This document shows positions 374 through 36,423 of a DNA stretch of 51,005 nucleotides, in pieces (the first letter of the stretch is position 1; each line of letters begins with the position of its first letter). A program made the position numbers and the translations under genes. Location: IMG/VR virus record IMGVR_UViG_3300044827_000006, positions 1-51,005 of that record. The stretch is one strand, 5' to 3'. This DNA comes from a virus. The notes beneath the pieces are model-generated. The model did not search any database. It worked only from the letters and a program-made list of their open reading frames with translations, and was not told the origin of the DNA.

Positions 374-3300
374 TTATGGGGCAATCAGCCCGTGCGTCTC
401 CATGCGCGTCAGCGTCGTATTCTGCGCTGTCTTCGTTGCATCCAAAGCCGTCTTCATCGTATTAACCTGCGCTACTAAATCGTTGATGACGGTCTGAGTA
501 GCCGCGTCATATGTAGCCGCCGCGGAGCCTGAGACGACTGCGCCGGTACTGGCGGTGACATGGGGAACCGCGGCTTCGCGCGGGCCTACTACTTGGTCTC
601 CCCCAACCATCACGCTTGCGCCAACTTCAATCGTCCCGCTCGTCGTCGTCGTGATACTCACGGCGCTTGTAGCCGTACCTATCAACACTCCGTTCTCAGG
701 CTGAATCTTGACTTCATGTGTACCAGGCGGAAGGCCCGGCAAGTCGAACGTGCCGTTATTGTCTGAATCGGGAGAGACTATTCCGGCATCCGAGAAGACT
801 GATTCACCGTCTCGCTTTAGTAGAATCCGCCCGGTCTGCCTTCCCTTATAAATCGCAAAAGCAAACACTCCATGAAGCGTTGAAGAGGTAGCGGTAATGG
901 AGTGCTCTGATAGTGTGAGACCCGTCGGCGTGCCGGGGGCCACGTCGGGGAGATTAAAGACCGTAGGGAGCGGAACGCTTCTGGCCGGGGCGTCATCCGA
1001 GTACATCGAAGAGAGATAACGACGCCCGGTGAAGGCTGCGGATAAGTCAGATTTAAGAGTCAGGTCTTCGATACGAATTATTAAATTAACGAAGCCGCCC
1101 GATTTGGCTGTGACTGCTATCACCGAGCCTTCTGAGAGCGTTAAAGCTTCACCGTCGGAAGCTAAGGATGAGAAGAAATCCCCGTCACGAAGTTCAGACA
1201 GAAACCCATTAGCCACCCGGACGGCCTGATGGTAATTGTCTATCGCGCTGCCACTTATCTCTTTACTATTAACCGTTCCTTTTATTTCAGAACGCTTCGG
1301 TATTCTCAGTTCTGTTAATTTGAAATCCTGACTCGAATCCCGATATTTAAGGATGACCTGATTGACGGTCGATTGTCTGGAGCCGAGAGGCCATTTAAAT
1401 GAGCCGTCGATAATGTTCGCCCTCTCACAATCGGCCTGAGTGTTAGCGTGATCTGACAAGGACATCGCCACCCGAATTACTTCTTCGGCTTCCGTGTGGT
1501 CGTATTCAAGCTGCTTTTCAAGCTGAAGAAATCCGACTTTAGCCATAAGTGAAACAACTAGAGGTGTCGTAGGATTCCATGTCGCTTTGACATATTCGTT
1601 TAAGGTCGGATTGGCGTTGACGGCGGCGGCCAGCATGGCCCCGACGGTGTTGACTGTATCGCCTGACGCCGGGGCGTAGGAGATCGAAACCCCGTCTATG
1701 GCTATCGTCTTTGTGCCTGAGAGGCTTGTGACGGTGATTTGGGCGGTTGCCGGAGTGCTTGCCCCGTCTCCCCCTGCAAAAGTTCCACCAGAGGCCGTCA
1801 GGCCGCCTGTAGCAGTTAAGGTGATCGAGTTTCCGACTGTGGAATATCTCGTCCCTGTCACCGTTCTACATTCCGAGGTGACGAGCTGCGCGCCGATGAC
1901 AACCTTGCCCGATAGATCGTCAAGCCACGCCATGACGGACTGAACAGGGATTTCAGTATCACCGGGTGAGGCCGTCCCACGTAGTAAGGTGTTATCGACG
2001 GGCCTCTTATGCCTTATCTGAATCTTTCCATTTGAGCCTTGAACCAGATACAGACGGGCTGCCGGGAAGATGACATCATTTAGGAAATCAACGGCCTTCT
2101 GTGAATCGGTAATCGGGACGTTGACCGTGTATCTTCGTCGATAGGTCGTAACAATCGTCGGCGTGCCCTGGGTGGTCGGGTCGAGCGGGTCAAAGAAGGT
2201 CGGGTCAGCTTCCAGAAGATTCGGGTTGACCGTGCCGTCATTCAAGAAATTGCGACGGAAATATTCAGGAGATAGCCTTGAGCCTGAATTGTAAAGGTGA
2301 TAAAGATTGCCGACGCGTGATATTTCCGTACCGGGCAACATCACCGTATCCGCATGAGATTCATCCTCTAAGAATTGATCGTCATATAGGGACTCTTTAA
2401 AGTTCACGCCGTCATCCATGAACTCTTCCGCGATGTTGCAAAGATGAGGGTCGGTAATTAACCAGCGTGAGACGTGAACCGGGTTATCCGTCCAGCCTAT
2501 TTTTCGGACTCGTGTATCTGTGGCAGTCGCATAGGCGGTGTGCTCTAAAACTAAAGTTGAGGTTCCGCCACCCGAGAGGACTTTCGTCAACAGGTCTAAT
2601 CTATGCGTCCCGTCTGCGTCAGTTATTAAATCTCCGGCTTTTTCAATCCACAGCTCATCACCGTTTCGATAATTAAGTGACGCGCCGGTCAGGTGGTCTG
2701 AAGCCGCATTGATTGATGCTCGGGTCGGAAGGTAATTACCGGAGGCATCAGGTAAGGGAACGCGACAGCCCAAGAGGACGGCGGAAATCTCAGCCGCAGG
2801 ATCATCCTGTTCAGGAGTAGAGCCGTTCGTATCTAAAGCGAGCCACGCTGTTCTTGAATAGAATCCGTCACCGGGATAAGCGTCATGGCCTGACTCTGTA
2901 ACGCCGGTCGGTTGCTGCTTACGACTCCCTTCGCCTTCTTTGGCTCTGTATCCGAAGCGCTTATAAATACCCGTGGGCTGGCCTAATCCGAGAGTGTTGT
3001 TTCGGATATTGGCATAGTCTTCAATTCCATAACTGACGCCATCTCCGAACGAGTAGAGGGCCGCGACGTTGAACGACTTATCTACTGACGCGATGGGCTT
3101 ACCCAACATCTGCACTCTGCCGATGGGGATTGGAATTGCCTCTTCCGCGTTTAAATCAGAGTGGGTAGAAAATTGGCGAGTGCGGGTGACGGATTTGGTC
3201 TTTAGACCGATAAGCGAGGCCCAGACTCCACGTGCCACTTTTTCTTTGAATTGAACTGTGAATGTAGTCGGAGCGTATCTGAACGCTTCGGATAAGGGGC

Positions 3301-3853
3301 TGACCGAATCATGTTCGGGATCGTCGGCTGTATATCTTCGCGGGGGAAGTTCTTCATCTACCGAGCCAACGTGCTGCTTGGCGCTTAGCTGAAAATCGTC
3401 GTCCCCAACCTCGATAGCCTTTTCACACTTACCGACAAAGCCTGGATAGGTATCGTTTAATTCGTAAGACTGTGAGCGTGAGACGAGCCTGACGACGAGT
3501 TGACAGTTCTCTAAACTATTCTCTGGTCGTTCAAGCGCGAGCTTCGCCATGTAGCGGCCCGTTGAACTTGAATTGTCGAAGGTGACTGAGTTTGAATTGA
3601 ACTTCGGGCCGCTTGACCTTTGAATGTCTGACCACTTGGTAATAAGTCTTCGGTATTGACGCCCGCGAAATTCCCATCCCGCATAATCGGTAAAACAATC
3701 AATCGCATTAACGGGGTCGAATCCGTCAACGCCGGGCACTGCATCGGACGGGTAGAGTTCGCACACTAAGGATATGTCGCGGCGCACGGCCTCATCTTCC
3801 GCCGTTCGATTCCACGTTCTCAGTGCTCGCAGAAATCTTTCGCTCAGTGGCAT
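374..3853 (-). CDS. Large tail tip / host-specificity-type protein
   Basis: A protein of 1159 residues from an ATG at 3853 whose A is shared with the upstream stop (TGATG). The frame opens upstream with a GTG at 3898, but the overlapping ATG fits the coupling seen across this operon better. The N-terminal half is rich in aromatic and beta-strand segments, the middle carries Gly/Thr-rich stretches, a fibronectin-III-like region follows (around residues 940-1060), and the C-terminus is a predicted coiled coil ending in METHGLIAP. Length, domain order and place downstream of the tape measure and tail genes fit a tail-tip or central-fibre protein. I see no catalytic motif. Role is inferred. Confidence 0.7.
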   Translation of the reverse strand: MPLSERFLRALRTWNRTAEDEAVRRDISLVCELYPSDAVPGVDGFDPVNAIDCFTDYAGWEFRGRQYRRLITKWSDIQRSSGPKFNSNSVTFDNSSSTGRYMAKLALERPENSLENCQLVVRLVSRSQSYELNDTYPGFVGKCEKAIEVGDDDFQLSAKQHVGSVDEELPPRRYTADDPEHDSVSPLSEAFRYAPTTFTVQFKEKVARGVWASLIGLKTKSVTRTRQFSTHSDLNAEEAIPIPIGRVQMLGKPIASVDKSFNVAALYSFGDGVSYGIEDYANIRNNTLGLGQPTGIYKRFGYRAKEGEGSRKQQPTGVTESGHDAYPGDGFYSRTAWLALDTNGSTPEQDDPAAEISAVLLGCRVPLPDASGNYLPTRASINAASDHLTGASLNYRNGDELWIEKAGDLITDADGTHRLDLLTKVLSGGGTSTLVLEHTAYATATDTRVRKIGWTDNPVHVSRWLITDPHLCNIAEEFMDDGVNFKESLYDDQFLEDESHADTVMLPGTEISRVGNLYHLYNSGSRLSPEYFRRNFLNDGTVNPNLLEADPTFFDPLDPTTQGTPTIVTTYRRRYTVNVPITDSQKAVDFLNDVIFPAARLYLVQGSNGKIQIRHKRPVDNTLLRGTASPGDTEIPVQSVMAWLDDLSGKVVIGAQLVTSECRTVTGTRYSTVGNSITLTATGGLTASGGTFAGGDGASTPATAQITVTSLSGTKTIAIDGVSISYAPASGDTVNTVGAMLAAAVNANPTLNEYVKATWNPTTPLVVSLMAKVGFLQLEKQLEYDHTEAEEVIRVAMSLSDHANTQADCERANIIDGSFKWPLGSRQSTVNQVILKYRDSSQDFKLTELRIPKRSEIKGTVNSKEISGSAIDNYHQAVRVANGFLSELRDGDFFSSLASDGEALTLSEGSVIAVTAKSGGFVNLIIRIEDLTLKSDLSAAFTGRRYLSSMYSDDAPARSVPLPTVFNLPDVAPGTPTGLTLSEHSITATSSTLHGVFAFAIYKGRQTGRILLKRDGESVFSDAGIVSPDSDNNGTFDLPGLPPGTHEVKIQPENGVLIGTATSAVSITTTTSGTIEVGASVMVGGDQVVGPREAAVPHVTASTGAVVSGSAAATYDAATQTVINDLVAQVNTMKTALDATKTAQNTTLTRMETHGLIAP

Positions 3854-4599
3854 CAGCTTGGATATTTCACAAGGCCAATTCGCGCCCTTTGAATCCACGT
3901 CTTGTCATGGTCTAGCTCAAATGATTCATACCTGACGCCGATCCGGAGTTGGCCGTCCGGGTCTCTATAATCGAACTCCAGTTCGTCATGCCTTGCCGCC
4001 GTGTAGTGATCTAAAAGAACCTGTGCTTCAGTCTCGTCTAACAGGCTGTCGCTGTAGTCCTCTTCCCAGCGAAGAGGTGGCACATCCCCTGTCGTGTTGA
4101 TGCTTATCCCTTTGTCCGCATACGTGTGCTTGGTAATGAGAGACTTAAAATCAGGTGGGAGCGTTCTGCGTTTTGATGGGTGCGGGCCACCTAAAGCCTC
4201 TACAGGGAACGGAGGGACGCCGGTTGAAGCTTCGGCGTAGAGCGAAGCAACGCGAGCGGCGAACTCGCTGGATAATTTGAACGCATTAAGTGTTGCCGCT
4301 CGTCCGTTGGCTACTACGTCAGCTTCCCAAAAGGCTTGGCCGGGTGCGTCGGGGGTATGGCCGTAGAACGATAAATATAATCCTTGAACGTATGCACTGT
4401 TCGACGTGGCGAGGGCCAGATATTCGCTTGAAGTGAACAGTCCGCCGACTCTGCTTTTAGCTTCAGTCAGTAAGGGAGCGGGACTGTTGACGAGCGGGTT
4501 TAGTGCCGCAAGCCACGCGGTAAGTTCCAGCGTGGTAGGGCGACGGGAGAGTGCGCCCGTGTAGGCTGTAATAGAAAATCTTTCGGTGGATAGGGGCAT
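3853..4599 (-). CDS. DUF4214-like tail-associated protein
   Basis: A 248-residue protein from ATG 4599 (MPLSTERFSITAYTG). Residues about 5-100 look like a DUF4214 unit, with the LYLSFYGHTPDAPGQAFWE stretch and the following helix. The rest is acidic with a C-terminal beta segment. The frame stays open to a GTG at 4662, but that extension reads through a structured RNA leader, so I place the start after it. No Shine-Dalgarno precedes ATG 4599, which is odd: either start could be used. It overlaps the tail-tip gene by TGATG. Function unknown; DUF4214 is seen in tail and surface proteins. Confidence 0.65.
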   Translation of the reverse strand: MPLSTERFSITAYTGALSRRPTTLELTAWLAALNPLVNSPAPLLTEAKSRVGGLFTSSEYLALATSNSAYVQGLYLSFYGHTPDAPGQAFWEADVVANGRAATLNAFKLSSEFAARVASLYAEASTGVPPFPVEALGGPHPSKRRTLPPDFKSLITKHTYADKGISINTTGDVPPLRWEEDYSDSLLDETEAQVLLDHYTAARHDELEFDYRDPDGQLRIGVRYESFELDHDKTWIQRARIGLVKYPS

Positions 4600-4603
4600 A
4601 AAT

Positions 4604-4670
4604 AAAAAAGGCGCATGTAATAGGCTCTTGGCCTTCTCACATGCACCTCGCCGAGCGGTCACGCTGGTGC
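4604..4670 (-). promoter_or_regulatory. Attenuator-like RNA element, copy A
   Basis: On the minus strand a hairpin (5-bp stem 4666-4670 with 4643-4647; inner 4-bp stem 4662-4665 with 4654-4657, loop of four) is followed by a terminator hairpin (4639-4647 with 4610-4618, 9 bp including one G-U, inner stem 4631-4634 with 4622-4625) and six T. The arm 4643-4647 is used by both structures, so they exclude each other. The 22-nt core at 4646-4667 is identical to 14752-14773. A near-consensus promoter lies upstream. Confidence 0.7.
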
Positions 4671-4708
4671 GTAGATAAGTTGTGTGGCGCTACTGTCGCG
4701 CGGGGAGA

Positions 4709-4737
4709 ATTATACTATAAGAGTGGGTTGGGGTGAA
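4709..4737 (-). promoter_or_regulatory. Promoter upstream of RNA element A
   Basis: Reading the minus strand, TTCACC (4737-4732), a 17-base spacer and a perfect TATAAT (4714-4709). Transcription would start near 4702 and enter the attenuator-like leader before the DUF4214 and tail-tip genes. Confidence 0.6.
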
Positions 4738-4748
4738 GGTGTTTTTCT

Positions 4749-4958
4749 CTAAATGAGTCGAGCAAACGCGGCAACCATCTGGGCCACCGCTAAGTTGCCT
4801 ATGACTTCCGCCGCTTCACGAAATGACGTTGCCAGCTTAATGCTTTCACGGGCCAACTCTTCCGAGGCTTTGACGTACCTATTGAGTGCGCGCATGTGCT
4901 GTGTGTGAAGGTCGGTTGCGCGTCGTTTGCGACGGTGGAATGTGCGGAGTCGGGTCAT
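4749..4958 (-). CDS. Small helical protein of unknown function
   Basis: A 69-residue protein with a basic N-terminus (MTRLRTFHRRKRR) and a long amphipathic helical remainder. Its ATG overlaps the stop of the upstream HTH gene (ATGA at 4955-4958), so the two form a pair. The basic start and helical body could bind nucleic acid or dimerise, but no family is recognisable. It ends just before the promoter that drives the tail-tip genes. Confidence 0.6.
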   Translation of the reverse strand: MTRLRTFHRRKRRATDLHTQHMRALNRYVKASEELARESIKLATSFREAAEVIGNLAVAQMVAAFARLI

Positions 4959-5185
4959 CTCTTGCCTTTCTTAGTTGTCTTGGGTCTGCCCTGTTTTGGA
5001 GGCTGGAAGTTCGCCAATGTGTCGGCGGGTATCTTCCAGACGGGGCCGCGCGGCGTAGCCTCAGACTTAGCGCCGGGGAAAAGCCCCTTACGCACCCATC
5101 GGACGAGAGTTTGGTAAGGGGCGTCTATTCCTCGTCCTTTCAATATGCCTTGAGCCTCAGTAGTAGTTACCATTCTCTTCGCCAT
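4955..5185 (-). CDS. MerR/excisionase-like helix-turn-helix protein
   Basis: A 76-residue protein. TTTEAQGILKGRGIDAPYQT followed by LVRWVRKGLFP and VWKIPADTLANF follows the MerR/Xis-type pattern: an HTH that recognises DNA, a wing with the W-K-I-P strand, and a basic tail. Such proteins are usually small DNA-binding regulators or excision factors. It is divergent from the plus-strand gene at 5346, and the shared intergenic region holds repeated GCTATCA motifs that could be its operators. The regulatory role is inferred from fold and place. Confidence 0.7.
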   Translation of the reverse strand: MAKRMVTTTEAQGILKGRGIDAPYQTLVRWVRKGLFPGAKSEATPRGPVWKIPADTLANFQPPKQGRPKTTKKGKR

Positions 5186-5263
5186 ACCTCCCTATATATC
5201 ACAACTATCTGAAATGGCGCTATCAGATTAGCACAGGTCGAATCCTAATACAATAAAAGATGT

Positions 5264-5313
5264 TAGGATGCTATCACTTTTCCCTTGCGCTTAACTTGCT
5301 AGGATGCTATCAT
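5264..5313 (+). promoter_or_regulatory. Promoter with two direct-repeat operators
   Basis: TTGCGC (5285-5290), a 17-base spacer and TATCAT (5308-5313) form a plus-strand promoter for the gene at 5346. The 13-bp sequence TAGGATGCTATCA occurs at 5264-5276 and 5300-5312, 36 bp apart, the second overlapping the -10 box; the GCTATCA core appears a third time at about 5218-5224. The arrangement suggests repression, possibly by the divergent HTH protein. Confidence 0.55.
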
Positions 5314-5345
5314 CTTTTCTGTCAGTCGGAAGGGAGACACCACGC

Positions 5346-5552
5346 ATGTTGAGAATAACCGAGATAGCCGAGAACGAAATAGTCATCACCGAGCACTACG
5401 CCGTCGAATATCAGCGGACTGGTCGTGGGGTATTCGCCGAAGTCAAAGACGCCGGTTCACGCTACAACGGGCTGTACGGGTTCGGTAGTACCAAAGAAGG
5501 CGCTCTTGCCTGTCTCGCCGCAAAGATTAGTCAGATGCCGTCTGACGAATAG
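5346..5552 (+). CDS. Small protein of unknown function
   Basis: A 68-residue protein from ATG 5346 (MLRITEIAENEIVITEHYAV), chosen because GGGAG lies ten bases upstream; an in-frame ATG at 5304 falls inside the promoter -10 region. The sequence alternates short beta strands with one helix (GSTKEGALACLAAKISQM), much like a small double-psi or HicB-like fold, but I cannot name a family. First gene of the plus-strand cassette that includes a PAS protein. Confidence 0.6.
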   Translation: MLRITEIAENEIVITEHYAVEYQRTGRGVFAEVKDAGSRYNGLYGFGSTKEGALACLAAKISQMPSDE

Positions 5553-5627
5553 CAGAAGGGCTTAGGAAAGCGCGAACTCTCCTAAGCCCCGTTCAACTTT
5601 CCACCCCTGCAAAGAAGGGAAAAGTCT

Positions 5628-6137
5628 ATGCCGAAGTCTAACACGAAGAGGAATGTATTTGATAGGCCCGCCGAGGTCGTCAACTTCGCCATGTACCGCG
5701 GTCTGCGCTTAACGAGTCACGACCCTTCACTCGCTATGGAGATCGTGCGGAATTGTCCGAACTTACACGCGGGGGCCGATGCGAAATTGTCCGAGACGAT
5801 AAGCAGGAGACGGGCTGAAAAAGGCAGGAAAGGGTCGAAAGGAGAGTTAGTTAAGTTCCCCGCACGCATGGCCTTTCCGGGCGGCATCTACGAACTAGAC
5901 CGCCGGGGCGTCGTCACGCACTTCAACCCGGCCCATCCTCCGGCCCCGGCACTCGTCGGGCTGGACTTCTTCGACGCGATAGCGCCGGGCCTGCGTAACT
6001 TGCGCGGCGACTACATCAGGTTTCTTTTGAGCGACGCAACCGACTACGAGACGGCGGCGAGCGGGCGAGTGTTCATCTTCGTCAAGGTCTTAGACTGCGC
6101 GGTCGTCACGGTGAACAGGGAAGGCGGCGCGGGATGA
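5628..6137 (+). CDS. PAS-domain protein, photoactive-yellow-protein type without the cysteine
   Basis: A 169-residue protein. The C-terminal part (about residues 86-162) follows the fold order of photoactive yellow protein: GGIYELDRRGVVTHFN, then GLDFFDAIAP, then a beta region FIFVKVLDCAVVTV. Where photoactive yellow protein and the second PAS protein of this phage (43575-43994) have A-P-C-T, this one has A-P-G-L (Gly121), so it cannot attach the p-coumaroyl chromophore in the known way. The first 80 residues are basic and unrecognised. A clean ribosome site precedes the ATG; it overlaps the next gene by ATGA. Assignment rests on motif similarity to the paralogue. Confidence 0.6.
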   Translation: MPKSNTKRNVFDRPAEVVNFAMYRGLRLTSHDPSLAMEIVRNCPNLHAGADAKLSETISRRRAEKGRKGSKGELVKFPARMAFPGGIYELDRRGVVTHFNPAHPPAPALVGLDFFDAIAPGLRNLRGDYIRFLLSDATDYETAASGRVFIFVKVLDCAVVTVNREGGAG

Positions 6138-6388
6138 AAAGGCGATTCAAGACAGGCGACCGCGTGATGTTCAAGATGCCGTTTCAAGGCAGGGGCATGA
6201 TACGCCCGGAGCCGCGTCCCTACCTCGTGACGAAAGTAGACGGTGGTCTCATCTACTTGGAAGGGTACGGATTACCCGTGCCCGACATCGCGCTCGCCCT
6301 CCCTCGCCGGGTTGAAAAGAATCCGTGGAAGGAACTACGCGACGAGTGGCAACGGTTTCTCGCCAAAGTGGAAAGAGGTACGGCATGA
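6134..6388 (+). CDS. Small basic protein of unknown function
   Basis: An 84-residue protein whose ATG overlaps the stop of the PAS gene (ATGA), so they are translationally coupled and probably work together. The sequence RFKTGDRVMFKMPFQGRG followed by YLVTKVDGGLIYLEGYGLPVP looks like a small SH3-like beta barrel, and the C-terminus (WKELRDEWQRFLAKVE) is an amphipathic helix. No family is certain. Last gene of its operon, followed by a terminator at 6418-6451. Confidence 0.6.
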   Translation: MKRRFKTGDRVMFKMPFQGRGMIRPEPRPYLVTKVDGGLIYLEGYGLPVPDIALALPRRVEKNPWKELRDEWQRFLAKVERGTA

Positions 6389-6417
6389 GACGCCTACTCT
6401 CGCTGGATAGATCGAAG

Positions 6418-6451
6418 GGGGCGGCTCTACATGGGGCCGCCTCTCTTCTTT
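6418..6451 (+). terminator. Terminator between convergent operons
   Basis: GGCGGC (6420-6425) pairs with GCCGCC (6436-6441), extendable by a G-U and a G-C pair, followed by a pyrimidine-rich run with TCTTCTTTT. It separates the PAS operon from the convergent minus-strand gene that ends at 6452. Confidence 0.6.
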
Positions 6452-6970
6452 TCATGCTGCTGGGCCTTCGGAGCCGTCTGGCTCGCCTAGTCTGTAACTC
6501 GCCTTGCGCCCTCGACCCGTGCTGACTATTCCGCGCCTGTCGGCTTCTTTCGCGCTCACGCCGAAAGCGGCCTGAAAGAATCTATCGCGCAATCGCTCGC
6601 CGCGCCTTTCATCAAACGTCTCGGGACGCTTCCGTTCTCTCCGAGGCGATGGCTCTTTGAAGGCACGCTTGCGACTCTGCCCGAGCATCATCATTCCCAT
6701 AGAAGCAGCGCACCGCTGGCAATGCTCACCGCCTTTGACTTCGCGCCATTCGCTGGTATCAGTTTCGACGCTTGGGCCGTCAAAGGGACGGAAGTCAAGA
6801 AAGCGCCCGCAGTCAGTTTCCAGGTATGCCCCCTCAACCCCACGCAGCGTGACGTGATACCACACGGCGCGGTGCGACTTCTGGCCTTTGCCTGCCGCCA
6901 CAGTCAGGCGTGAACCTAGTAGTTCGCGCGCCGCTTTGCCCCGATCTGGAAATTGAATGGCGCTAGTCAT
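6452..6970 (-). CDS. Conserved-looking protein of unknown function with a possible zinc site
   Basis: A 172-residue protein, basic in its second half (KRAFKEPSPRRERKRPETF). Two short cysteine clusters (DCGRF near residue 54, HCQRCAA near 84-88) could hold a zinc ion. The start overlaps the stop of the RHH gene (ATGA at 6967-6970), giving a two-gene unit in which the RHH protein probably controls expression. No family recognised; DNA binding is plausible from charge only. Confidence 0.55.
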   Translation of the reverse strand: MTSAIQFPDRGKAARELLGSRLTVAAGKGQKSHRAVWYHVTLRGVEGAYLETDCGRFLDFRPFDGPSVETDTSEWREVKGGEHCQRCAASMGMMMLGQSRKRAFKEPSPRRERKRPETFDERRGERLRDRFFQAAFGVSAKEADRRGIVSTGRGRKASYRLGEPDGSEGPAA

Positions 6971-7200
6971 GCTGTTTTTCTTTTCTTCGACATCTCGCGT
7001 ATCTCAAACGCCTCTGGCTCACGGGTCTTCTCTTCACGTATCAGTTGCGTGATCTGCTGTCGGATAAATCCTGACATGCTGACACCGCGCAATGTGCAAG
7101 CCGTAGCGAAGTCCGCAGCCGTTTGAGGTTCAAACGCCACGTTGATGAACTTCGTCTTCTTTTTCTCTTTAGGTAGTTTTGGCCGTCCCACATCAAGCAT
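6967..7200 (-). CDS. Ribbon-helix-helix (CopG-type) regulator
   Basis: A 77-residue protein. FINVAFEPQTAADFATACTL followed by RGVSMSGFIRQQITQLI gives the beta strand, first helix and S-x-S-x-x-x-R second helix of the RHH fold; a basic N-terminal tail (KLPKEKKKTK) is usual for DNA contact. A strong ribosome site (GGAGGTG) precedes the ATG. It is divergent from the ParB-like gene, so it may repress both directions from the intervening 140 bp. First gene of a pair with the protein at 6452-6970. Confidence 0.7.
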   Translation of the reverse strand: MLDVGRPKLPKEKKKTKFINVAFEPQTAADFATACTLRGVSMSGFIRQQITQLIREEKTREPEAFEIREMSKKRKTA

Positions 7201-7270
7201 CTTTACAGCACCTCCGATTATTTTTCAAACTAAATCGTAATTTCTTTGTTTTCTTCTACAACTTTAATGC

Positions 7271-7276
7271 TATACT
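7271..7276 (+). promoter_or_regulatory. -10 box of the ParB-like gene promoter
   Basis: TATACT in the AT-rich divergent region between the RHH and ParB-like genes. The -35 box is poor (TTGTTT with a 19-base spacer), which fits a promoter that needs activation or is tightly controlled. Confidence 0.4.
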
Positions 7277-7341
7277 AGCAGAAAGTTTGGATGGGTAAAA
7301 GGAAATAAAGTTTTACCCCGATACAAGCCGTGAGGAGAGCA

Positions 7342-8241
7342 ATGGAATATCACGAAGCCGCAGACATCTACCCCCAGTTGGAGGGCAAAGAGTTCGATGC
7401 TTTGGTTGAAGACATTCGCAAAAACGGGCTACGCGTACCAATCCTGACGTGCAAAGGAAAGATACTGGACGGCAGAAACCGCGACCGCGCCTGCGATGCC
7501 GCTGGAGTTAAAAAGCGATATGAGGAATGGGACGGCGTTGGCTCTCCTGTTGATGCAGTTGTTTCCTATAACGATGCGCGCCGTCATATGGAGTCAGGTC
7601 AGCGAGCGGTTTCTGCCCTTATGGCAGAAAAGCTTTTAGCGAAAGAGGCGAAAGAGAAGGAAGCAAAGCGCAAATCTAAAAAAGAGGGGGTGACTTTTCC
7701 AAATTTGGAAAAGTCACCCCCTCTTCACTCGGCAAAGCAGGCTGCTAAAAAGTTCAAGGTGAGTCACCAGTATGTAAGCGATGCAAAGAAGATTGACCGG
7801 CAGGCTCCCGCACTCATTAAGGATGTACACGAAGGCAGGCTACCGATTCAAGACGCGAAAAAGGTAGCAACCTTGCCAGAGGGAGTTCGCGACCAGGCTG
7901 TGCAGGGAATTGTCAGAGCAAAGACTCCCGAACAGAAACGTTTCATCGCACGCGAAGCCGTGAGGGCCGCCAACCAAAAGCCAGAACGCCCCCTTTATGA
8001 ACAGTTGTATACGGGGGCCATCAAAGCGGACAAGTTAATTCACGACCTTAATCAGATCGGCGGCGTGTGCGTAATCGCTGAGATGGAGGATTGGGAGCCA
8101 GGGCAACGGCAGGTAGTCATAGACGCCGTGAGGCGCACCGCAGAGGCATTCAACGGCCTCTACAACGAACTGACAGAACTAAATCAGGAGATAAACTACG
8201 ATGGCGAAGACACAACGCAGGGCGTTCAGTATTCCAACTGA
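7342..8241 (+). CDS. ParB/Srx-domain protein with central HTH
   Basis: A 299-residue protein from ATG 7342, which has AGGAG five bases upstream; a GTG at 7330 is less likely. Residues 1-65 are a ParB/sulfiredoxin-like domain (YPQLEGKEFDALVEDI and the nucleotide-binding ILDGRNRDRAC). After a lysine-rich linker comes an HTH (SAKQAAKKFKVSHQYVSDA) and a mostly helical C-terminus. ParB relatives on phages act in partition, DNA nicking or regulation. The linker is encoded by a 44-bp perfect palindrome (7682-7725), which is remarkable and might be a binding site. The gene overlaps the next by 41 bases. Confidence 0.75.
   Translation: MEYHEAADIYPQLEGKEFDALVEDIRKNGLRVPILTCKGKILDGRNRDRACDAAGVKKRYEEWDGVGSPVDAVVSYNDARRHMESGQRAVSALMAEKLLAKEAKEKEAKRKSKKEGVTFPNLEKSPPLHSAKQAAKKFKVSHQYVSDAKKIDRQAPALIKDVHEGRLPIQDAKKVATLPEGVRDQAVQGIVRAKTPEQKRFIAREAVRAANQKPERPLYEQLYTGAIKADKLIHDLNQIGGVCVIAEMEDWEPGQRQVVIDAVRRTAEAFNGLYNELTELNQEINYDGEDTTQGVQYSN
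7682..7725. repeat. 44-bp perfect palindrome inside the ParB-like gene
   Basis: Left arm 7682-7703 and right arm 7704-7725 are exact reverse complements with no spacer; the centre is CCAAATTTGG and the ends are AAGAGGGGGTGAC and its complement. It encodes the linker between the ParB domain and the HTH. Such a perfect palindrome is very unlikely by chance and would form a cruciform or a long mRNA hairpin. Confidence 0.95.
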
Positions 8242-8719
8242 AGAGTTGGCAAAGATTCTTCTGACGGATGAGCACATTCCAACGTGGATGCGGGTCGAAA
8301 GACTTGATGCCATTGGTGCGTGGAATCAAGATTATCTCGACAACGCAGAAGAGAAGGCCAAAACCGACGCGGTACGCGCGTGGTACGGAGACTATCACGC
8401 ATCACAGGCAAGGCGGCGCGACACTGTAAACGTGCCGCGAAAGCTTCCCGGCGGTGAGGTTGTGAGGGCTTACAAGCTAAAGGAAAAAGCGAGCCTTCCC
8501 GACTTGCAGGCAGCGGAGGCCGAAAGCTGGCAGAGGGCCAATACTAGCTGGCGAGAAGCGATGGAGCTGCGCTCACTGGCCGAAGTGAAATTCGGCGCGC
8601 AGATCGGCTTGCCGTTTGAGTTCGAGGCCCGCGCTCCTCAGATGAATCGGCCAAGAGCGACACGCGCACAGCGTCAGCCTAAGACCCCGATGCGTCGTCA
8701 TCCCGAAAAGAGCAAGTGA
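8201..8719 (+). CDS. Unknown protein downstream of the ParB-like gene
   Basis: A 172-residue protein, helical and charged, rich in Ala, Arg and Glu with a very basic C-terminal tail (RATRAQRQPKTPMRRHPEK). It starts with AGGAG eight to nine bases before ATG, inside the last 41 bases of the ParB-like gene, so the two are coupled. No domain recognised. The basic tail suggests contact with nucleic acid; a partner of the ParB-like protein is a reasonable guess only. Confidence 0.6.
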   Translation: MAKTQRRAFSIPTEELAKILLTDEHIPTWMRVERLDAIGAWNQDYLDNAEEKAKTDAVRAWYGDYHASQARRRDTVNVPRKLPGGEVVRAYKLKEKASLPDLQAAEAESWQRANTSWREAMELRSLAEVKFGAQIGLPFEFEARAPQMNRPRATRAQRQPKTPMRRHPEKSK

Positions 8720-8892
8720 ACAAGCGCAAAACAAAACGTATCATCGTCTCACTCAAGCCCGAGCACGTCACCCTTATCAAAGAGGCGTTACGAGTGCTCG
8801 GGCGAGACGGTGAACTACGTTTTGCGGAAGAGGATAAGACTCGCCTGCGGGAAGAGGTCTTGAAGGCGCTGGAAGGTCGGGCAGTTCTGTAG
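8716..8892 (+). CDS. Small basic protein of unknown function
   Basis: A 58-residue frame starting with GTG whose last base overlaps the preceding stop (GTGA at 8716-8719). The sequence MNKRKTKRIIVSLKPEHVTL then two helices (LIKEALRVLG, TRLREEVLKALEG) resembles a tiny beta-helix-helix regulator. It ends just before a terminator at 8916-8945, so it is the last gene of the ParB operon. Tiling with the upstream gene is the main support. Confidence 0.6.
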   Translation: MNKRKTKRIIVSLKPEHVTLIKEALRVLGRDGELRFAEEDKTRLREEVLKALEGRAVL

Positions 8893-8915
8893 ACTTGCTC
8901 ACAAGAGGTAAAGAG

Positions 8916-8945
8916 GGGCGGGGCTTTCGTGGCCTTGCCCTTTTT
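8916..8945 (+). terminator. Terminator of the ParB-like operon
   Basis: A nine-bp stem (8916-8924 with 8932-8940, two G-U pairs) with a seven-base loop, followed by TTTTT. Confidence 0.65.
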
Positions 8946-8970
8946 GCTTGAGGGGGCGTATGATTTTTGC

Positions 8971-9222
8971 ATGAGCGAAGACTCCACTAAAGACCTTGAG
9001 CAGAAGTACGACACCAAGCCGACACTTGAAACCGTCGTTCAGATGCTCGGTGAGTTCAGAGCTTCGATGGAAAGCCGTTTCGATGCGGTAGATACCAGAC
9101 TCGATAAGATTGAAGAGCGTGTTGACCGCATGGAGGGACAACTAGACCGCGCGACTTCCGTCGTACATGAAACCCGTGCCGAGTTGCGAGAACTGAAGGG
9201 GCATTTCAAGGAACCTGCATAG
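8971..9222 (+). CDS. Small coiled-coil protein
   Basis: An 83-residue protein from ATG 8971 (MSEDSTKDLEQKYDTKPTLE). Most of it is a heptad coiled coil (SRFDAVDTRLDKIEERVDRM and onward). Its own promoter is likely: TTGCCC, 18 bases, TATGAT just upstream, after the terminator. Coiled coils of this kind are common small phage proteins of unknown role; I cannot assign one here. Confidence 0.65.
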   Translation: MSEDSTKDLEQKYDTKPTLETVVQMLGEFRASMESRFDAVDTRLDKIEERVDRMEGQLDRATSVVHETRAELRELKGHFKEPA

Positions 9223-9265
9223 ACCTTTATCTGCACAAGCCTCATCTGTGATAGCATCCCGCGGC

Positions 9266-10420
9266 ATGAAAAGCGTCACTATTTTTTGCCTCATTGCGCT
9301 CACACTGTCATTAACTTCTTTTGCCCAAGTCATAGGCCCGCTTCAAAAGCAAGCACGCCAAGCCAATGCTGAATATAAGAAAAGCCTTGAAGAGCAAGAG
9401 TTGAATAGGCAGCAGGAAAGACTAATGGGGTTAAAAGCACTGACCTCTATCAACGAAACCACCGAGCGGGAGATTGAGCAAGCAAAGTCGGATGTTCTTA
9501 AAACGCAAAGTAAGATAGCAGACACAAAAAGGCGAATTGAAGAAGTTGATGGATTAGTAGCCGCCGCCGCTACTCCACATCAGGAAACGTCTGAAGAGGG
9601 AGAGGCGATCAGGAAAATCATTGAACGGGCAGAAGATCACTATAAGACTGGAATAGCCCTCATCATTGCACATAGACCTCAAGAGGCTACAAAGGCATTC
9701 AACGCGGCGGTGGATGTAATTCTTGAGTCGGGTTATGAAGTTAAAAAATATAAGTACCTAGATCAATACTACATAGCCTTAGTTGAAAAGATTTACAGTG
9801 CGGAAACACGCGCGACGCAAGACTTCATACCCAATACGTCGCCTGTCATTCCAAGTGTGACAGAGGACACAACCGAGTCGGGATGTAAGCTTGAAAATAA
9901 GGAAAAAATTAACCTCAGAGGCTTTCGTTTAGGTGAGACGATGGTTGATGTTAAGAGACGCATTCCACGCTTCACTGTACCGTCAGCAAATAAATACGGC
10001 TTCGCAAGAAATTTAGTTAAGCCTGCGATGGTAGTGCGCGACGCCAACTTTAAAGATGTTCGCGTTTTCGGCTTTGAGTTCGTTGACAATAAGGTTACTG
10101 CCCTTCGAGTTCTGTATAGCAATACAACTGATTGGCCGAGCGCGGCTGAATTTGTCAATCAAGTTGCTGAGTCACTTGGCATTCATGGTGCATGGGAACC
10201 ATATGCAACAGATGATTACCGCTATGTTGACAAGTTATGGCGCATAACCTGTGGTGATTCAAAGTTCATGGCAGGTTTTGCCGACATCAACGGTAAGCAG
10301 TACCTCTATCTTACATGGGAGGATATAGCTGCTGACAAATTAATCTATCAACGTGTCGTCACTGAGGCTGAAAGAAAAAGGAAAGAAGCCGAAATGCGAC
10401 GTAGAACGTTTAGACCCTAA
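9266..10420 (+). CDS. Exported protein of unknown function, likely cargo gene
   Basis: A 384-residue protein from ATG 9266. Residues 1-20 are a clear signal peptide (MKSVTIFCLIALTLSLTSFA, cut after A). A coiled coil follows (about 25-90), then a helical repeat-like part and, from about residue 210, a beta-rich domain with LRGFRLGETMVDVKRRIP, a pattern I associate with exported proteins of acidobacteria. It has no phage structural or replication features, so it is probably a lysogenic-conversion gene acting in the periplasm. Codon and base use look lower in GC than the flanking structural genes, which fits recent gain. Confidence 0.7.
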   Translation: MKSVTIFCLIALTLSLTSFAQVIGPLQKQARQANAEYKKSLEEQELNRQQERLMGLKALTSINETTEREIEQAKSDVLKTQSKIADTKRRIEEVDGLVAAAATPHQETSEEGEAIRKIIERAEDHYKTGIALIIAHRPQEATKAFNAAVDVILESGYEVKKYKYLDQYYIALVEKIYSAETRATQDFIPNTSPVIPSVTEDTTESGCKLENKEKINLRGFRLGETMVDVKRRIPRFTVPSANKYGFARNLVKPAMVVRDANFKDVRVFGFEFVDNKVTALRVLYSNTTDWPSAAEFVNQVAESLGIHGAWEPYATDDYRYVDKLWRITCGDSKFMAGFADINGKQYLYLTWEDIAADKLIYQRVVTEAERKRKEAEMRRRTFRP

Positions 10421-10436
10421 ATGGAGATAGATAGTC

Positions 10437-10949
10437 GTGAGAACAAGAATCTTACTCGTCACGCTGCTTAGTTTATTTACTCTCTCTGGCGTCTTTGCTC
10501 AAGAGGTGGTCGCACCTGAAACTGGCTCAATGGACACCATAAAGAACCTGCACAAAGTCTACGTGATCTGTGAAGATGATGACGAACGCAAAACTATTGC
10601 CGGAATGCTTGACGGGTATGTTGGATTAGAGATTGTCGCCAGCCCAAAGGACGCCGAGTTTTATCTTGAGATAAAAGACCTGACACGCGACGTAGCAGCA
10701 ACACGTTCGGGCGGAGCAATAGCGCAGAAATCACAGATGCGCGCGTTCATAGTGAAGCCTGAAGATAAGACCCGCGTCATTGCTTGGATAGAAACGGAGA
10801 CTTACGAACAAAGTGGCGGCTTTATTCTTGGCGCACCGAATGAGATCAACCTTACGCACCATTTCATCAACGCTCTACAGGTTGCGCGCGGAGAGAAGAA
10901 ATCCTCAATGCGTGACTTATTCAAACACTCCAAGCGTGCGAAGCAGTAG
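10437..10949 (+). CDS. Second exported cargo protein
   Basis: A 170-residue protein starting at GTG 10437, with GGAGAT nine bases upstream. It begins with a signal peptide (residues 1-21, ending SGVFAQ) and continues with alternating strands and helices (KVYVICEDDDERKTIAGML, AEFYLEIKDLTRD) and a basic tail. It follows the other exported gene by 16 bases, so they form one operon. I do not recognise a family. Probably periplasmic and host-derived; effect on the lysogen unknown. Confidence 0.65.
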   Translation: MRTRILLVTLLSLFTLSGVFAQEVVAPETGSMDTIKNLHKVYVICEDDDERKTIAGMLDGYVGLEIVASPKDAEFYLEIKDLTRDVAATRSGGAIAQKSQMRAFIVKPEDKTRVIAWIETETYEQSGGFILGAPNEINLTHHFINALQVARGEKKSSMRDLFKHSKRAKQ

Positions 10950-10982
10950 ACTTTCCCTCTCAGTGCGCATCTCTTCTCTTGC

Positions 10983-13934
10983 TCATCTCAATGAACCGCC
11001 TTGCAAGACCTCTAATAGATGGGGGTTATCTAAACTGTACTCACGGTGAAAGACTCTCACTAAAGCCTCGCCATGTCCCTTGATTGCAGTCCCTACCATC
11101 TCAACAAACGTGCCGGGGTCGCTCTTAGTGTTCATCGTAACCTCGACTTGCACCGGCTCTTGATGAATGATGATAGGTCGCGGGGTGAACAGGTTACGGC
11201 TTTGCTCTATTGTGCCGCTGCCCTGCGCTGGCGAACCGAAGGCGCTACCCGTTGATGCTCCGCCCGCTGCACTGACAGCACCGGAAGAATTAAAAGCATT
11301 ACCTGCGACGGCACGTCCAAGTAGTCCAGTTCCTAAAGCCACCGCACCCATAAGAGCCGCCGCCTCAAACCACTGCGTAGCGGGGCCGTAGATAGCCGCA
11401 CCCCACGGCGTCAGCGCCGCTATCCCATAAGCCGTAAACATCAACGCTTGTGTCGCCGCCTGCATAGCGACGTTTGATAGAACTGTAGCCGTTAGCTTTC
11501 TTAGTGCGTGCTCGCCTAAACTTCCTGTTAGCACCCATTGCTGTATCATCTGTCCGAAGCCTTGCGCCATCGCATGAAAGCTATTTAAGGCCACGTCTTT
11601 CAGTCCGGCAATTGCGCCCTTCCACGGGTCGAAATTCGGAGGCGGAGGCGCACCCAAAGCAGCAATATCCCCCGGACTGACAACCGGCCCGTTCGTCTGT
11701 CCAACCCCCTGCGGCACTCTACCGAGATTAACTCCCGGCAAGCCGTCCCTGCTCTCTATCATCCTATCGAGCGCCGCGTTTACGTCACCAATGTCTTTCT
11801 CAAGACGCTCTAAATCTTGAATGGTCGCACTGGTCGCCGCCCCTCCGGCTTCACGCTTAAACGCTTCTGCTTTCTCTGTGAGCACCGACAGTTGGTGAAT
11901 ATAATCGGCAACAGCATCGGCGTTACCTATGGCGGCTTTCTTCTCTTCTTCTAAAAACTCGCGCCGCTGATTCAATCCACTTGCCTGCTCTGCCGTAATC
12001 CTCTTCTGCGCTTCGGCAAATGAAATCTCGCCCGCCTGCGCCATTTGCTTCTGCTTGTCGATAAACTCCGTGGCCTGCAAATCCCAGATTTCGAGTTTTT
12101 CGCGATGCTCTTTTTGCAGAGTAGCGAGGCTCTTTGTTGTCAGTTCCTCGTTGAGCTTCTCCATGCGGAGATTGAAGTCGGCCTGCTCCGCTATCAGTTG
12201 GTTGTTCTTAACCTTAACCTCAGCCACGCGGAGCGCCGCTTCCTGCGCTGTCTCCTCTTTCGTCGTACCGAGACCGGTAGCAGGGTCGTTGATATCTTTA
12301 TTGCGCGATACTATCGCTAGTCGCTCATCCTGAAGTTGTGTCTTGCGCGCAGCCCACCTATCGCGCTCTGCCGTCTTCATTCTTTCAACGAAGGCAACGT
12401 AATCACCGGTTATTTTGTAGAGACGTTCGGCCTCATCAACGGCCTGCTTAAATGCCGCCTGGGCTGCGCTCGCGTCGGCGGTCTGCAAGGTGTTGCGCGC
12501 CCTCTCCGCCAGTTCTTTAGCTTTCTCCTGCTCCTTCTCCCACGCATCAACCGCACTCTTGAGGCCCGCGGTCTCCCCCTTCCCCTTAGTGCCCGTGGCG
12601 CGCTGGCCGCTCTCGTCAACCCGTATAATCCCGCCTTCGCCCTCTCCGCCCGGACTCGCAAATTCTCCGCTCGCGCTCGCAAATCTTCCTTTCTCCGCAG
12701 GCTTCGTGTTAGCGGCCTTTAGTAAGAGAGAGAGGTTTTTTTCAAATGCCTCACTAAACGATGTGTCAGCCATCGCCGCGTAGTAAGCTCCTATCGCAGC
12801 GGTCGCCACTAAAATGATGTCAACGAACTGATGTGTCCTTTGGGCCAGATCGTCAAACACCACGCTGAACAAATCGCCTTCGATCTGTCCATCATGAAAG
12901 GCTCTGGCGAGTCGATTGATTTCCGGTATCAGCGCATTACCGACACGAAACTCGAAGCGTTCAGCCGCCAGAGAGACAGCCTCGATATGGTCTCTTAGCT
13001 CATCCGCCCCACGCACAGCCTCACCCGACATGACGAGGCCCGCTGCACGGGCCTTCGCTATGATTCCGTCAATGTCTCCGTTCGTGTTGTTGATGAAAAG
13101 TGAAAGCTGTCTATAACCCCTCCCCATCACCTGCGCGCCGAGTTCATTGCGCGTGGCGAGGTCTGGAATCTTGGCAAGACCCGCAACAAGTTGCCTGAAG
13201 GCGACTTCCGGCCCGGCGGTTATATCGACACCTAAGCGCTTGAACGCTGCGGCCATTGACCCGCCCGTGTCTTTCGCCTTACCCATGTTCCTTTCCAAGA
13301 AGAACATGCTGTTTGCAAGGGTCTCAAGTGAGGCGCGATTCTGCTTTAGGGTAAGTTCAAGGCCGGAGAGAGTCGCTACGCTGAGGCCGGTTTGCGCGCT
13401 GAGGTCGGCAAACTTATTGCCTACCTGTTCAGCCTTAGCAACAACAGCGACTGCCGCAGCCCCTACCGCGGCTAATGCAACCCCAACGGGTAGTGCTACC
13501 GTGGCAATGGCTGAAAGCTGACTGGTAAATCCTGCGGCTTCTTGCTCTGCCGTGGCAAGTCTTCCGCCCACTCTTTCTATCGACAGGGCGGCGGTGGCGG
13601 CGGAACGTTCGGCTTGTGCTATCGCTAGCTGCGAGTCGGCAATAAGCTTATCGGTGAGACCTGTGGTCTGATTTGCCAGCGTGGCGCTTCGGCCTAAGTC
13701 GCCCTCCATCGCTCTCATACTTGAAAGAATGGCAGAACTACGCTGTCGCTGAAGAGAGTCAACGGCCTTTATCTGTTCCGCGACGCTAAGATAGGCCCCC
13801 GCGCTGGTCTTCTGAATAGCCGCCTCGGTAGCAGTTACATCATCCCTGACAGCTTTCGTGAAACGCCCCAACTCATCGCGGGCTTGAGTAGTGCCGTCAA
13901 TCTTAAGCTTAAATGTCAGGTCGGTATCAGCCAT
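10983..13934 (-). CDS. Tail tape measure protein
   Basis: A 983-residue protein. The N-terminus (LTFKLKIDGTTQARDELGRF) and first 130 residues are coiled-coil, followed by a hydrophobic segment at about 140-175, a tape-measure core (FADLSAQTGLSVATLSGLEL), long helices around 470-690 and a second hydrophobic region near 830-890. This is the usual plan of siphovirus tape measures, which set tail length and pass through the tube into the host envelope. It lies immediately after the two tail chaperone frames, as expected. A protein of this size would predict a tail near 150 nm, by the usual 1.5 angstrom per residue rule. Confidence 0.9.
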   Translation of the reverse strand: MADTDLTFKLKIDGTTQARDELGRFTKAVRDDVTATEAAIQKTSAGAYLSVAEQIKAVDSLQRQRSSAILSSMRAMEGDLGRSATLANQTTGLTDKLIADSQLAIAQAERSAATAALSIERVGGRLATAEQEAAGFTSQLSAIATVALPVGVALAAVGAAAVAVVAKAEQVGNKFADLSAQTGLSVATLSGLELTLKQNRASLETLANSMFFLERNMGKAKDTGGSMAAAFKRLGVDITAGPEVAFRQLVAGLAKIPDLATRNELGAQVMGRGYRQLSLFINNTNGDIDGIIAKARAAGLVMSGEAVRGADELRDHIEAVSLAAERFEFRVGNALIPEINRLARAFHDGQIEGDLFSVVFDDLAQRTHQFVDIILVATAAIGAYYAAMADTSFSEAFEKNLSLLLKAANTKPAEKGRFASASGEFASPGGEGEGGIIRVDESGQRATGTKGKGETAGLKSAVDAWEKEQEKAKELAERARNTLQTADASAAQAAFKQAVDEAERLYKITGDYVAFVERMKTAERDRWAARKTQLQDERLAIVSRNKDINDPATGLGTTKEETAQEAALRVAEVKVKNNQLIAEQADFNLRMEKLNEELTTKSLATLQKEHREKLEIWDLQATEFIDKQKQMAQAGEISFAEAQKRITAEQASGLNQRREFLEEEKKAAIGNADAVADYIHQLSVLTEKAEAFKREAGGAATSATIQDLERLEKDIGDVNAALDRMIESRDGLPGVNLGRVPQGVGQTNGPVVSPGDIAALGAPPPPNFDPWKGAIAGLKDVALNSFHAMAQGFGQMIQQWVLTGSLGEHALRKLTATVLSNVAMQAATQALMFTAYGIAALTPWGAAIYGPATQWFEAAALMGAVALGTGLLGRAVAGNAFNSSGAVSAAGGASTGSAFGSPAQGSGTIEQSRNLFTPRPIIIHQEPVQVEVTMNTKSDPGTFVEMVGTAIKGHGEALVRVFHREYSLDNPHLLEVLQGGSLR

Positions 13935-14215
13935 TAGTTACCCGTCGCTCCGCAGTCCTTGCACTTTAATTCTCCGCTCGCCTGCTTCTCAAATCGTTCA
14001 TGCGAACAACTCGTGCCCTTACTCTTGCCTTTCTCTTCACCTCCGAACCCCCAACCTATCGCCACCTTCAATCTATTCAACTCTCTTTCGTCTTCCCATT
14101 CGCGGTAGTAGATTGCGAGACATCTATCGAACTCATCGGCGAGTCCTCTGTCACGCAGCCTCATCCACCGCGACGGCCTCACTCCGAACGTCTGACACGC
14201 TATCGCTAGTTCCAA
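13934..14215 (-). CDS. Tail assembly chaperone, T-like downstream frame
   Basis: A 93-residue frame that overlaps the upstream chaperone frame by 65 bases and stops at the tape measure start. It has no good ATG; the listed start is TTG at 14215. In the +1 frame it is open back to about 14241, so it is likely reached by ribosomal frameshifting from the G-like gene, as is usual for tail chaperones. The sequence ELAIACQTFGVRPSRWMRL is typical of the T domain. The tail end has Cys/His pairs (SCSHERF and CKDCG) that could bind zinc. Confidence 0.7.
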   Translation of the reverse strand: MELAIACQTFGVRPSRWMRLRDRGLADEFDRCLAIYYREWEDERELNRLKVAIGWGFGGEEKGKSKGTSCSHERFEKQASGELKCKDCGATGN

Positions 14216-14690
14216 CGCTTGCGGTTTGTTCAGAAGGAAAGCGGTTTACGTCAGCGGATGTCACCTCGCTTTCATCCGGCACGGGAGCCTTGCAACCATC
14301 GTGATACCACTTATAGACAAAGTAGAAATCGGCTTCGTCAATATCATCGACGCCCAACTGTCCGGGCTTTGGGTTCAGATAAAGCTTTGGCTTCTTAACG
14401 CAAGCCACGACAGTAATGCGCGTGATTTGCAGGCTCAATTCTTTCTGCTCATCGGTCATCTTCTCTAGTGCATCAAGCGCGGCCTCCTCTATCTCTTTGT
14501 CAGTCATCCTTTCCGGGTCTGGCTCTTTAATTCCAGAGGCCACACGTAAGGCCCTCAAACGCCGGTTCAGAGAGGTGGTCATTAAGGCCAGTTCGGGGCC
14601 CGGCTTCTGAACGATACACCTTGAGCCGCTTGGGCAATTAAGAACGATTTCTTCGCGCGGCTTCCATGTATTAACTAACTCTTCACTCAT
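14151..14690 (-). CDS. Tail assembly chaperone, G-like
   Basis: A 179-residue protein with AAGGAGAG seven bases before ATG 14690. It lies between the major tail protein and the tape measure, overlaps the next frame, and has the helical, acidic C-terminus usual for G-type chaperones, which coat the tape measure during tail assembly. The shift site would be in the last 30 codons, near GTAAACCGCTTTCCTTCTG at about 14225-14245, where a TTTC could allow a +1 slip. Family is inferred from synteny and overlap rather than a strong motif. Confidence 0.7.
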   Translation of the reverse strand: MSEELVNTWKPREEIVLNCPSGSRCIVQKPGPELALMTTSLNRRLRALRVASGIKEPDPERMTDKEIEEAALDALEKMTDEQKELSLQITRITVVACVKKPKLYLNPKPGQLGVDDIDEADFYFVYKWYHDGCKAPVPDESEVTSADVNRFPSEQTASVGTSDSVSDVRSEAVAVDEAA

Positions 14691-14708
14691 AAACTCTCCT
14701 TCAAATCG

Positions 14709-14776
14709 AAAAGAGGCACATGTAAGGGCCTCTCAAGCCTCAATACATGTGCCTCGCCGAGCGGTCACGCTGGCAC
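14709..14776 (-). promoter_or_regulatory. Attenuator-like RNA element, copy B
   Basis: On the minus strand: hairpin with stem 14772-14776 / 14749-14753 and inner stem 14768-14771 / 14760-14763, then a perfect 12-bp terminator stem 14744-14755 / 14713-14724 followed by TTTT. The arm 14749-14753 is shared, so hairpin and terminator compete. Core 14752-14773 equals copy A. The outer stem differs from copy A at two positions on each side, with pairing kept. It lies between the tail tube gene and the tail chaperone genes. A short frame from GTG (14768) encodes MTARRGTCIEA and stops inside the element. Confidence 0.75.
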
Positions 14777-14797: not shown

Positions 14798-15406
14798 CTA
14801 ACTCTGAATAAAGATAACCCCCATTTGCTTTCCGCGGGCGCGCGACGCGACAGACAAACCAACGAACTTGAACGGGCTTGACGCCTCATCCTCTAGGTTA
14901 TTCGTCAATGTCACTCCCTCGGTGTTGTAGCCCGAGAAAATCATAAAGACGACAGCCTTCGTGGAGTCATCCGCACGGGGGGCGACGACGGCGATACACT
15001 GCGCTGTGGGTGTGGGTTTGCCGCCGAACTCGACGATATTTCCACCCGTCACGGTCGCCTTTGTGCCGCCGACGCTGATAGTCTCCAAAAGGACAGGGTC
15101 TAGTATCTGCTTGAACGCGCCCTCAATCGTCATCTCTTCAGCGACAATTCTGGTTAGATGAGGCGCGGTGTGCTCGTTGTCCGTAGCATCCTTTTTCGTC
15201 CAACTGTACTTACAGACCGTGCCCTTCTCTGTGTAGCCAATGTGAACGGCGGACGGGTTGGCAGTCGCGTCAAGCGCGAGCGTGCCATCGGCAAGCGTGG
15301 CGATAGTGGGCGCAGCACCGGCGGCTGGGATAGCTGCTCCGGTATACACCTTACCCATCTCCCACATCACTTTTGTCTTGTCGAAGTTATCGGCTATGCC
15401 TGCCAT
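14798..15406 (-). CDS. Major tail (tube) protein
   Basis: A 202-residue protein with the beta-rich, Ala/Gly/Thr-rich composition of tail tube subunits (MAGIADNFDKTKVMWEMGKV; HIGYTEKGTVCKYSWTKKD; VFMIFSGYNTEGVTLTNNLE). It lies between the connector genes and the chaperones, the standard place for the tube protein, and is followed by attenuator element B. Many copies are needed, which fits a regulated terminator right after it. No single diagnostic motif, but size, composition and position agree. Confidence 0.75.
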   Translation of the reverse strand: MAGIADNFDKTKVMWEMGKVYTGAAIPAAGAAPTIATLADGTLALDATANPSAVHIGYTEKGTVCKYSWTKKDATDNEHTAPHLTRIVAEEMTIEGAFKQILDPVLLETISVGGTKATVTGGNIVEFGGKPTPTAQCIAVVAPRADDSTKAVVFMIFSGYNTEGVTLTNNLEDEASSPFKFVGLSVASRARGKQMGVIFIQS

Positions 15407-36233: not shown

Positions 36234-36423
36234 AGCTTCGTGTCTCCTTGCGGATGTGATATGCCGGGCGTTAGCAACCGCCGCAAGACGGCCCGTACCT
36301 TTCCCCCGAAGGGTCTTGTATGGGTACGGACACCCGACAGAAATCGGAGACACAAAAAAGCCACGATACTTTCGGGCGTGGTGTCCGCTTGCGGAAGGGG
36401 TTGCTAGCCCCGTCAACACCCGC
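36234..36423 (-). promoter_or_regulatory. Structured 5' leader with sequestered ribosome site and pseudoknot
   Basis: Minus-strand transcript from the promoter at 36424-36451. It contains a hairpin (36408-36411 / 36397-36400), another (about 36385-36395), a terminator-like stem (36377-36381 / 36361-36365, six T), then an 8-bp perfect stem between 36346-36353 and 36240-36247 that covers the Shine-Dalgarno bases. Enclosed are two crossing stems, 36323-36329 / 36293-36299 (7 bp) and 36313-36318 / 36284-36289 (6 bp), an H-type pseudoknot. Confidence 0.6.
36354..36381 (-). terminator. Terminator-like hairpin in the leader
   Basis: CCACG (36381-36377) pairs with CGTGG (36365-36361) around an 11-base loop, followed by TTTTTT. 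The stem is only five pairs, so it may act as an attenuator rather than a full stop. Confidence 0.5.

Follow-up and report, generated by a model that had tools for sequence, protein, structure and literature searches.

Two related leader elements with a constant core and predicted terminators in front of tail genes of a siphovirus-like phage

Two paralogous minus-strand elements, copies A and B, stand in front of tail genes in the late region of a siphovirus-like virus (Table 1), and the most probable reading of them is duplication of an attenuator, or of a leaky terminator, acting on those genes. The DNA analysed, here called the window, is the whole 51,005-nt stretch of an IMG/VR virus record; its siphovirus-like late region lies on the minus strand, where family models recognise terminase, portal, major capsid and tape measure. 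We favour, at a probability of roughly 45%, the reading that A and B are regulated transcription attenuators, duplicated and OFF by default, that tune tail-gene expression. Transcription would normally stop at the two terminators, leaving the downstream genes expressed at a fraction of the level upstream: after B these are the low-copy tail chaperone and tape measure, after A the DUF4214/tail-tip region. Conditions that favour the outer-stem fold would give more read-through, the trigger most likely being a phage or host protein, or a modified RNA polymerase, that acts as a putative binder of the constant loop.

Table 1. Positions in the window of elements A and B, their parts and the genes next to them
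Feature	Position	Strand	Remarks
Element A, whole	about 4684-4602	(-)	
Copy A promoter-like site, sigma70-type	4709..4737	(-)	TTCACC-17-TATAAT, 10/12; consensus match only
Copy A identical 22-nt core	4646..4667	(-)	CCAGCGTGACCGCTCGGCGAGG, exact match
Copy A outer stem (alternative, antiterminator-type)	4643..4670	(-)	GCACC 4670-4666 with GGTGC 4647-4643
Copy A intrinsic terminator	4602..4649	(-)	stem 4649-4608, then U-run; 5' arm overlaps outer-stem 3' strand
DUF4214 protein gene, directly after copy A	3853..4599	(-)	248 aa; no Shine-Dalgarno
Element B, whole	about 14789-14709	(-)	
Copy B identical 22-nt core	14752..14773	(-)	CCAGCGTGACCGCTCGGCGAGG, exact match
Copy B outer stem	14749..14776	(-)	GTGCC 14776-14772 with GGCAC 14753-14749
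Copy B intrinsic terminator	14709..14755	(-)	perfect 12-bp stem 14755-14713, then TTTT
Tail-tube-like protein gene, before copy B	14798..15406	(-)	30% identity to its positional counterpart in L003; lies between head genes and tape measure
Likely tail assembly chaperone gene, after copy B	14151..14690	(-)	position; weak DUF7391 match; weak similarity to L003 counterpart

The alignment of the two elements runs from ACAAyTTA to the U-run, about 86 columns in all, of which 62 are identical. An earlier note on this DNA had claimed a common 22-nt core, and in the alignment identity is indeed complete there (22/22), set against 40 of 64 columns (~62%) elsewhere. The core consists of an inner hairpin, AGCG/CGCT with the loop TGAC, followed by CGGCGA. 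No further site is found in the window with up to three mismatches allowed, and none of 100 shuffles contains the core. A run of 22 identical columns arises in 512 of 100,000 column shuffles (~0.005). The unbroken identical core is more than chance, as seen in two sequences from one genome. A kink-turn reading of the core, judged by eye, was dropped, the non-canonical stem being too short, and GCGTGACCG at 21180-21172, in another leader, was rejected as a third copy, such 9-mers occurring at chance number with one mismatch allowed.

The core also holds a GTG from which ribosomes could translate a short peptide (MTARRG...) and disrupt the terminator, as had been suggested earlier. The frame reads alike in A and B, and in A it continues without a stop across the terminator and into the next gene. 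However, no Shine-Dalgarno precedes the GTG in A and at most a weak AGGA does so in B, the frame in B stops after 11 codons, and an identical peptide is the trivial outcome of identical DNA. Leader-peptide attenuation is therefore highly improbable, and the suggestion a weak one.

The core is partly enclosed in an outer stem that reads GCACC/GGTGC in A and GTGCC/GGCAC in B, so that two of the five pairs are changed on both sides while the stem stays paired, as first proposed; no other register pairs well. When the upstream columns are shuffled, a stem of 5 bp or more with two or more double changes appears in 18 of 20,000 trials (0.09%) if only Watson-Crick pairs count and in 171 of 20,000 (0.9%) with G-U allowed, a frequency of ~0.001-0.01. 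The outer stem is more than chance, and its support is real, if modest, coming as it does from two sequences. Its middle strand, GGTGC or GGCAC, has two possible partners: the upstream strand, in a pairing that encloses the constant 18-nt loop AGCGUGACCGCUCGGCGA, or the terminator 3' arm. The claim that the terminator arm reuses outer-stem bases thus holds, and so does the layout of an attenuator, with two exclusive pairings of the middle strand and a U-run terminator just before a gene. One base change, at column 41, is matched in the 5' stem, the middle arm and the terminator 3' arm, and is the one double-sided change between A and B in the 12-bp terminator stem. For conserved, mutually exclusive pairing of the kind expected of an attenuator there are two compensatory pairs in n = 2 sequences, and the energy analysis lends it no support.

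The predicted terminators themselves are strong, with z-scores of -7.0 (A) and -5.7 (B); a permissive terminator scan was also run, of which the strongest sites alone were used. At both places a predicted intrinsic terminator precedes a same-orientation gene, the generic arrangement of an attenuator. Over the full element the alternative fold is ~12 kcal/mol less stable than the terminator, and upstream RNA gives the terminator 5' arm no extra cover, relative to shuffled flanks, before the 3' arm is made. The core hairpin and the terminator had been described as mutually exclusive; this is true of the outer stem, but the inner hairpin is compatible with the terminator, and the two occur together in the minimum-energy fold of copy B. 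Since the terminator is so much the stronger and sequestration stays at shuffle level, termination should be the default, and antitermination, if it occurs, would depend on a binder or on kinetic help.

Could A and B then be plain terminators? Phages commonly use attenuating terminators behind their abundant structural genes, and a copied cassette of constitutive, leaky terminators could lower tail-gene expression without a regulated fold, its core aiding termination or merely kept. The far greater stability of the terminator, the coexistence of the two hairpins in copy B and the shuffle-level sequestration of the terminator arm all fit this explanation, which we regard as a serious possibility. 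It leaves the perfectly constant 22-nt core unaccounted for, however, and a terminator has no need of the compensatory change seen in the 5' strand. If it is right, A and B are ordinary.

The surroundings of the two copies differ. The promoter-like site of copy A, called near-perfect in the earlier note, matches at 10 of 12 positions, and such sites are no commoner in the 20-kb stretch with copy A than in shuffles. It lies ~40 nt upstream of the core; the terminator falls ~95 nt past the predicted start, and the ATG of the DUF4214 gene a few nt past the U-run. Upstream of copy B no promoter-like site was found. The likely chaperone gene after B is overlapped by a frame at 13934-14215. L003, the nearest relative and the sole close one in the structural genes (its capsid protein is 71% identical to that of the window), has no element at the position of B, its tail-tube stop and the next start overlapping (TAATG), so that B was either gained in the lineage of the window or lost in that of L003. 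The large-terminase relatives (L235-L251) have almost no structural module in common with the window, the exceptions being weak portal matches and distant head-gene matches in L250. Control of tail genes by both elements, as the earlier note had it, is plausible for B, which has the tail-tube-like gene upstream and the chaperone and tape-measure genes downstream; for A it depends on the DUF4214 gene and on a 1174-aa protein with no more than a sub-threshold Phage-tail_3 match. The spacing of promoter-like site and terminator at A would also suit a free-standing small RNA of ~95 nt acting elsewhere, but B has no promoter-like site, both elements lie directly before gene starts, and the cores are identical rather than complementary, which makes this very unlikely.

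Further leaders resemble copy A in layout. At 21195-21050 (-) a leader with the -10-like TAGTATCATAAT precedes a head gene at 21050, and its hairpin GAGUG-GAAA-CGCUC competes with the terminator CGCUCAC...GUGGGCG-UUUUUU (21118-21079). Another promoter-leader-terminator unit lies at 36451-36354 (-). In L003 a highly structured leader of ~215 nt (3063-3277 (+); 12-bp closing stem, fold z = -5.5), which has no Rfam gathering match, follows a promoter-like site TTGCGC...TATACT and ends in a very strong terminator (3238-3277) before the homologous head gene. Together with copy A, these units make promoter-leader-terminator a recurrent layout, one that resembles the late antitermination control of other phages.

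Several other features were seen along the window. At 36254-36339 (-) a match to RF02221 (sRNA-Xcc1) above the gathering score (59.9 bits, cut-off 53) lies in a phage leader, downstream of a TTGCAA-16-TATAAT promoter-like site and of the terminator CCACG...CGTGG-TTTTTT (36381-36354), and directly before an AGGAG-preceded ATG at 36233. A strong terminator-like hairpin (-28.7 kcal/mol, then TTTTT) occupies 30391-30339 (-), ~90 nt ahead of a gene start at 30250, and a near-perfect 20-bp palindrome, GAAGAGGGGGTGACTTTTCCAAATTTGGAAAAGTCACCCCCTC, at 7726-7681, has a minus-strand U-run and lies inside the plus-strand frame 7330-8241. The phage has two NinG-like proteins, at 45416-45871 (+) and 48385-48861 (+), the latter adjoining a Mom-like DNA-modification gene (47963-48400) and a queuine tRNA-ribosyltransferase-like gene (48866-49552).

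Processive antitermination of the lambda Q, HK022 put or Xp10 p7 type would mean read-through late in infection by a modified RNA polymerase, with the core as a possible RNA or DNA loading site. The units at A, 21195-21079 and 36451-36354 point in this direction, as does the structured L003 leader, an arrangement that recalls the lambda late promoter with its terminator. Against it, B has no promoter-like site, the core is absent from the other leaders, no Q-, N- or p7-like protein was recognised among the genes scanned, and there is no meaningful similarity to any INPHARED record; we consider it unlikely for A and B. Even with constitutive terminators at A and B, the recurrence of such units in this poorly sampled lineage points to a late programme in the style of antitermination, beyond the model phages.

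The search for relatives of A and B returned little. Rfam 15 covariance models gave no gathering-level match at either copy; at E up to 10 there was none for A, and for B only chance-level matches far below cut-off. The exact 22-nt core was found in this genome only, IMG/VR and the GTDB genomes giving no other. The 18-nt inner core has one match, inside coding sequence and judged chance. The looser pattern CCNNNNTGACNNNNCGGCGAGG occurs at no fewer than 119 loci, and among the matches listed none has both stems and a terminator, the best of them (L139) lying within a coding frame. By blastn, the INPHARED phage collection held nothing meaningfully similar. The covariance search for homologues with compensatory changes that had been proposed as a check found none: in related loci, model R1 matched its two source copies and otherwise gave weak chance matches, and it came back empty from 490 genomes (480 from two candidate host phyla and 10 with related capsid genes), which is weak evidence given a two-sequence model, stricter filters and a host that is not identified. 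Absence of further homologues with compensatory changes was the first half of what the earlier note named as refuting its reading, and within these collections it is what was seen; the outcome would be no different, however, for a lone lineage that is poorly sampled. No aptamer conserved across genomes, as in a riboswitch, emerged from the collections searched.

Taken together, the invariant core amid 62%-identical flanks, the compensatory changes, the strong U-run terminators, the position of both copies directly before same-orientation genes and the similar layout of other leaders argue for attenuators. What weakens a regulated switch is that there are two copies in one genome, that the terminator is favoured, that independent covariation is lacking and that L003 is without B. 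The earlier interpretation accordingly stands in its layout and compensatory outer stem, and is tempered by n = 2, an alternative fold weaker by ~12 kcal/mol and no homologue. Because of the weak alternative fold, the shuffle-level sequestration and the lack of homologues, a ligand-sensing riboswitch class is not claimable. It is doubtful, too, that the copies define a novel class of cis-regulatory phage RNA, in which the loop in its switchable stem would sense a phage protein or metabolite, release the terminator and tune the ratio of tail tube to chaperone and tape measure during virion assembly. Should A and B switch, the phage would set structural-protein ratios by conditional termination inside the tail operon, with a compact regulatory element copied to two places.

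Known systems offer partial parallels. Like terminator-antiterminator riboswitches and protein-sensing leaders, A and B have one strand that pairs either upstream, enclosing a constant core, or with the U-tailed terminator 3' arm before a gene; unlike them, they come without Rfam match, homologues, ligand or binder, and their alternative fold is much weaker. The lambda-type late leader, with its promoter, short RNA, intrinsic terminator and Q-dependent late genes, is matched by the layout of copy A and of the further leaders. Copy B, in contrast, lies inside an operon, and no Q gene or Q-binding element was identified; among the genes scanned no antiterminator family was matched, NinG-like proteins are present and many genes have no family. 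The put RNAs of HK022 are ~70 nt long, with two stem-loops, and lie near a promoter (PMC9378689). They are found downstream of early promoters and act at a distance, whereas B has no upstream promoter-like site and the second hairpin of A and B is itself a U-tailed terminator; blastn in the phage collection gave no meaningful match that would place the copies among them. What A and B do have in common with put is a short two-hairpin RNA, present as two related copies in one phage.
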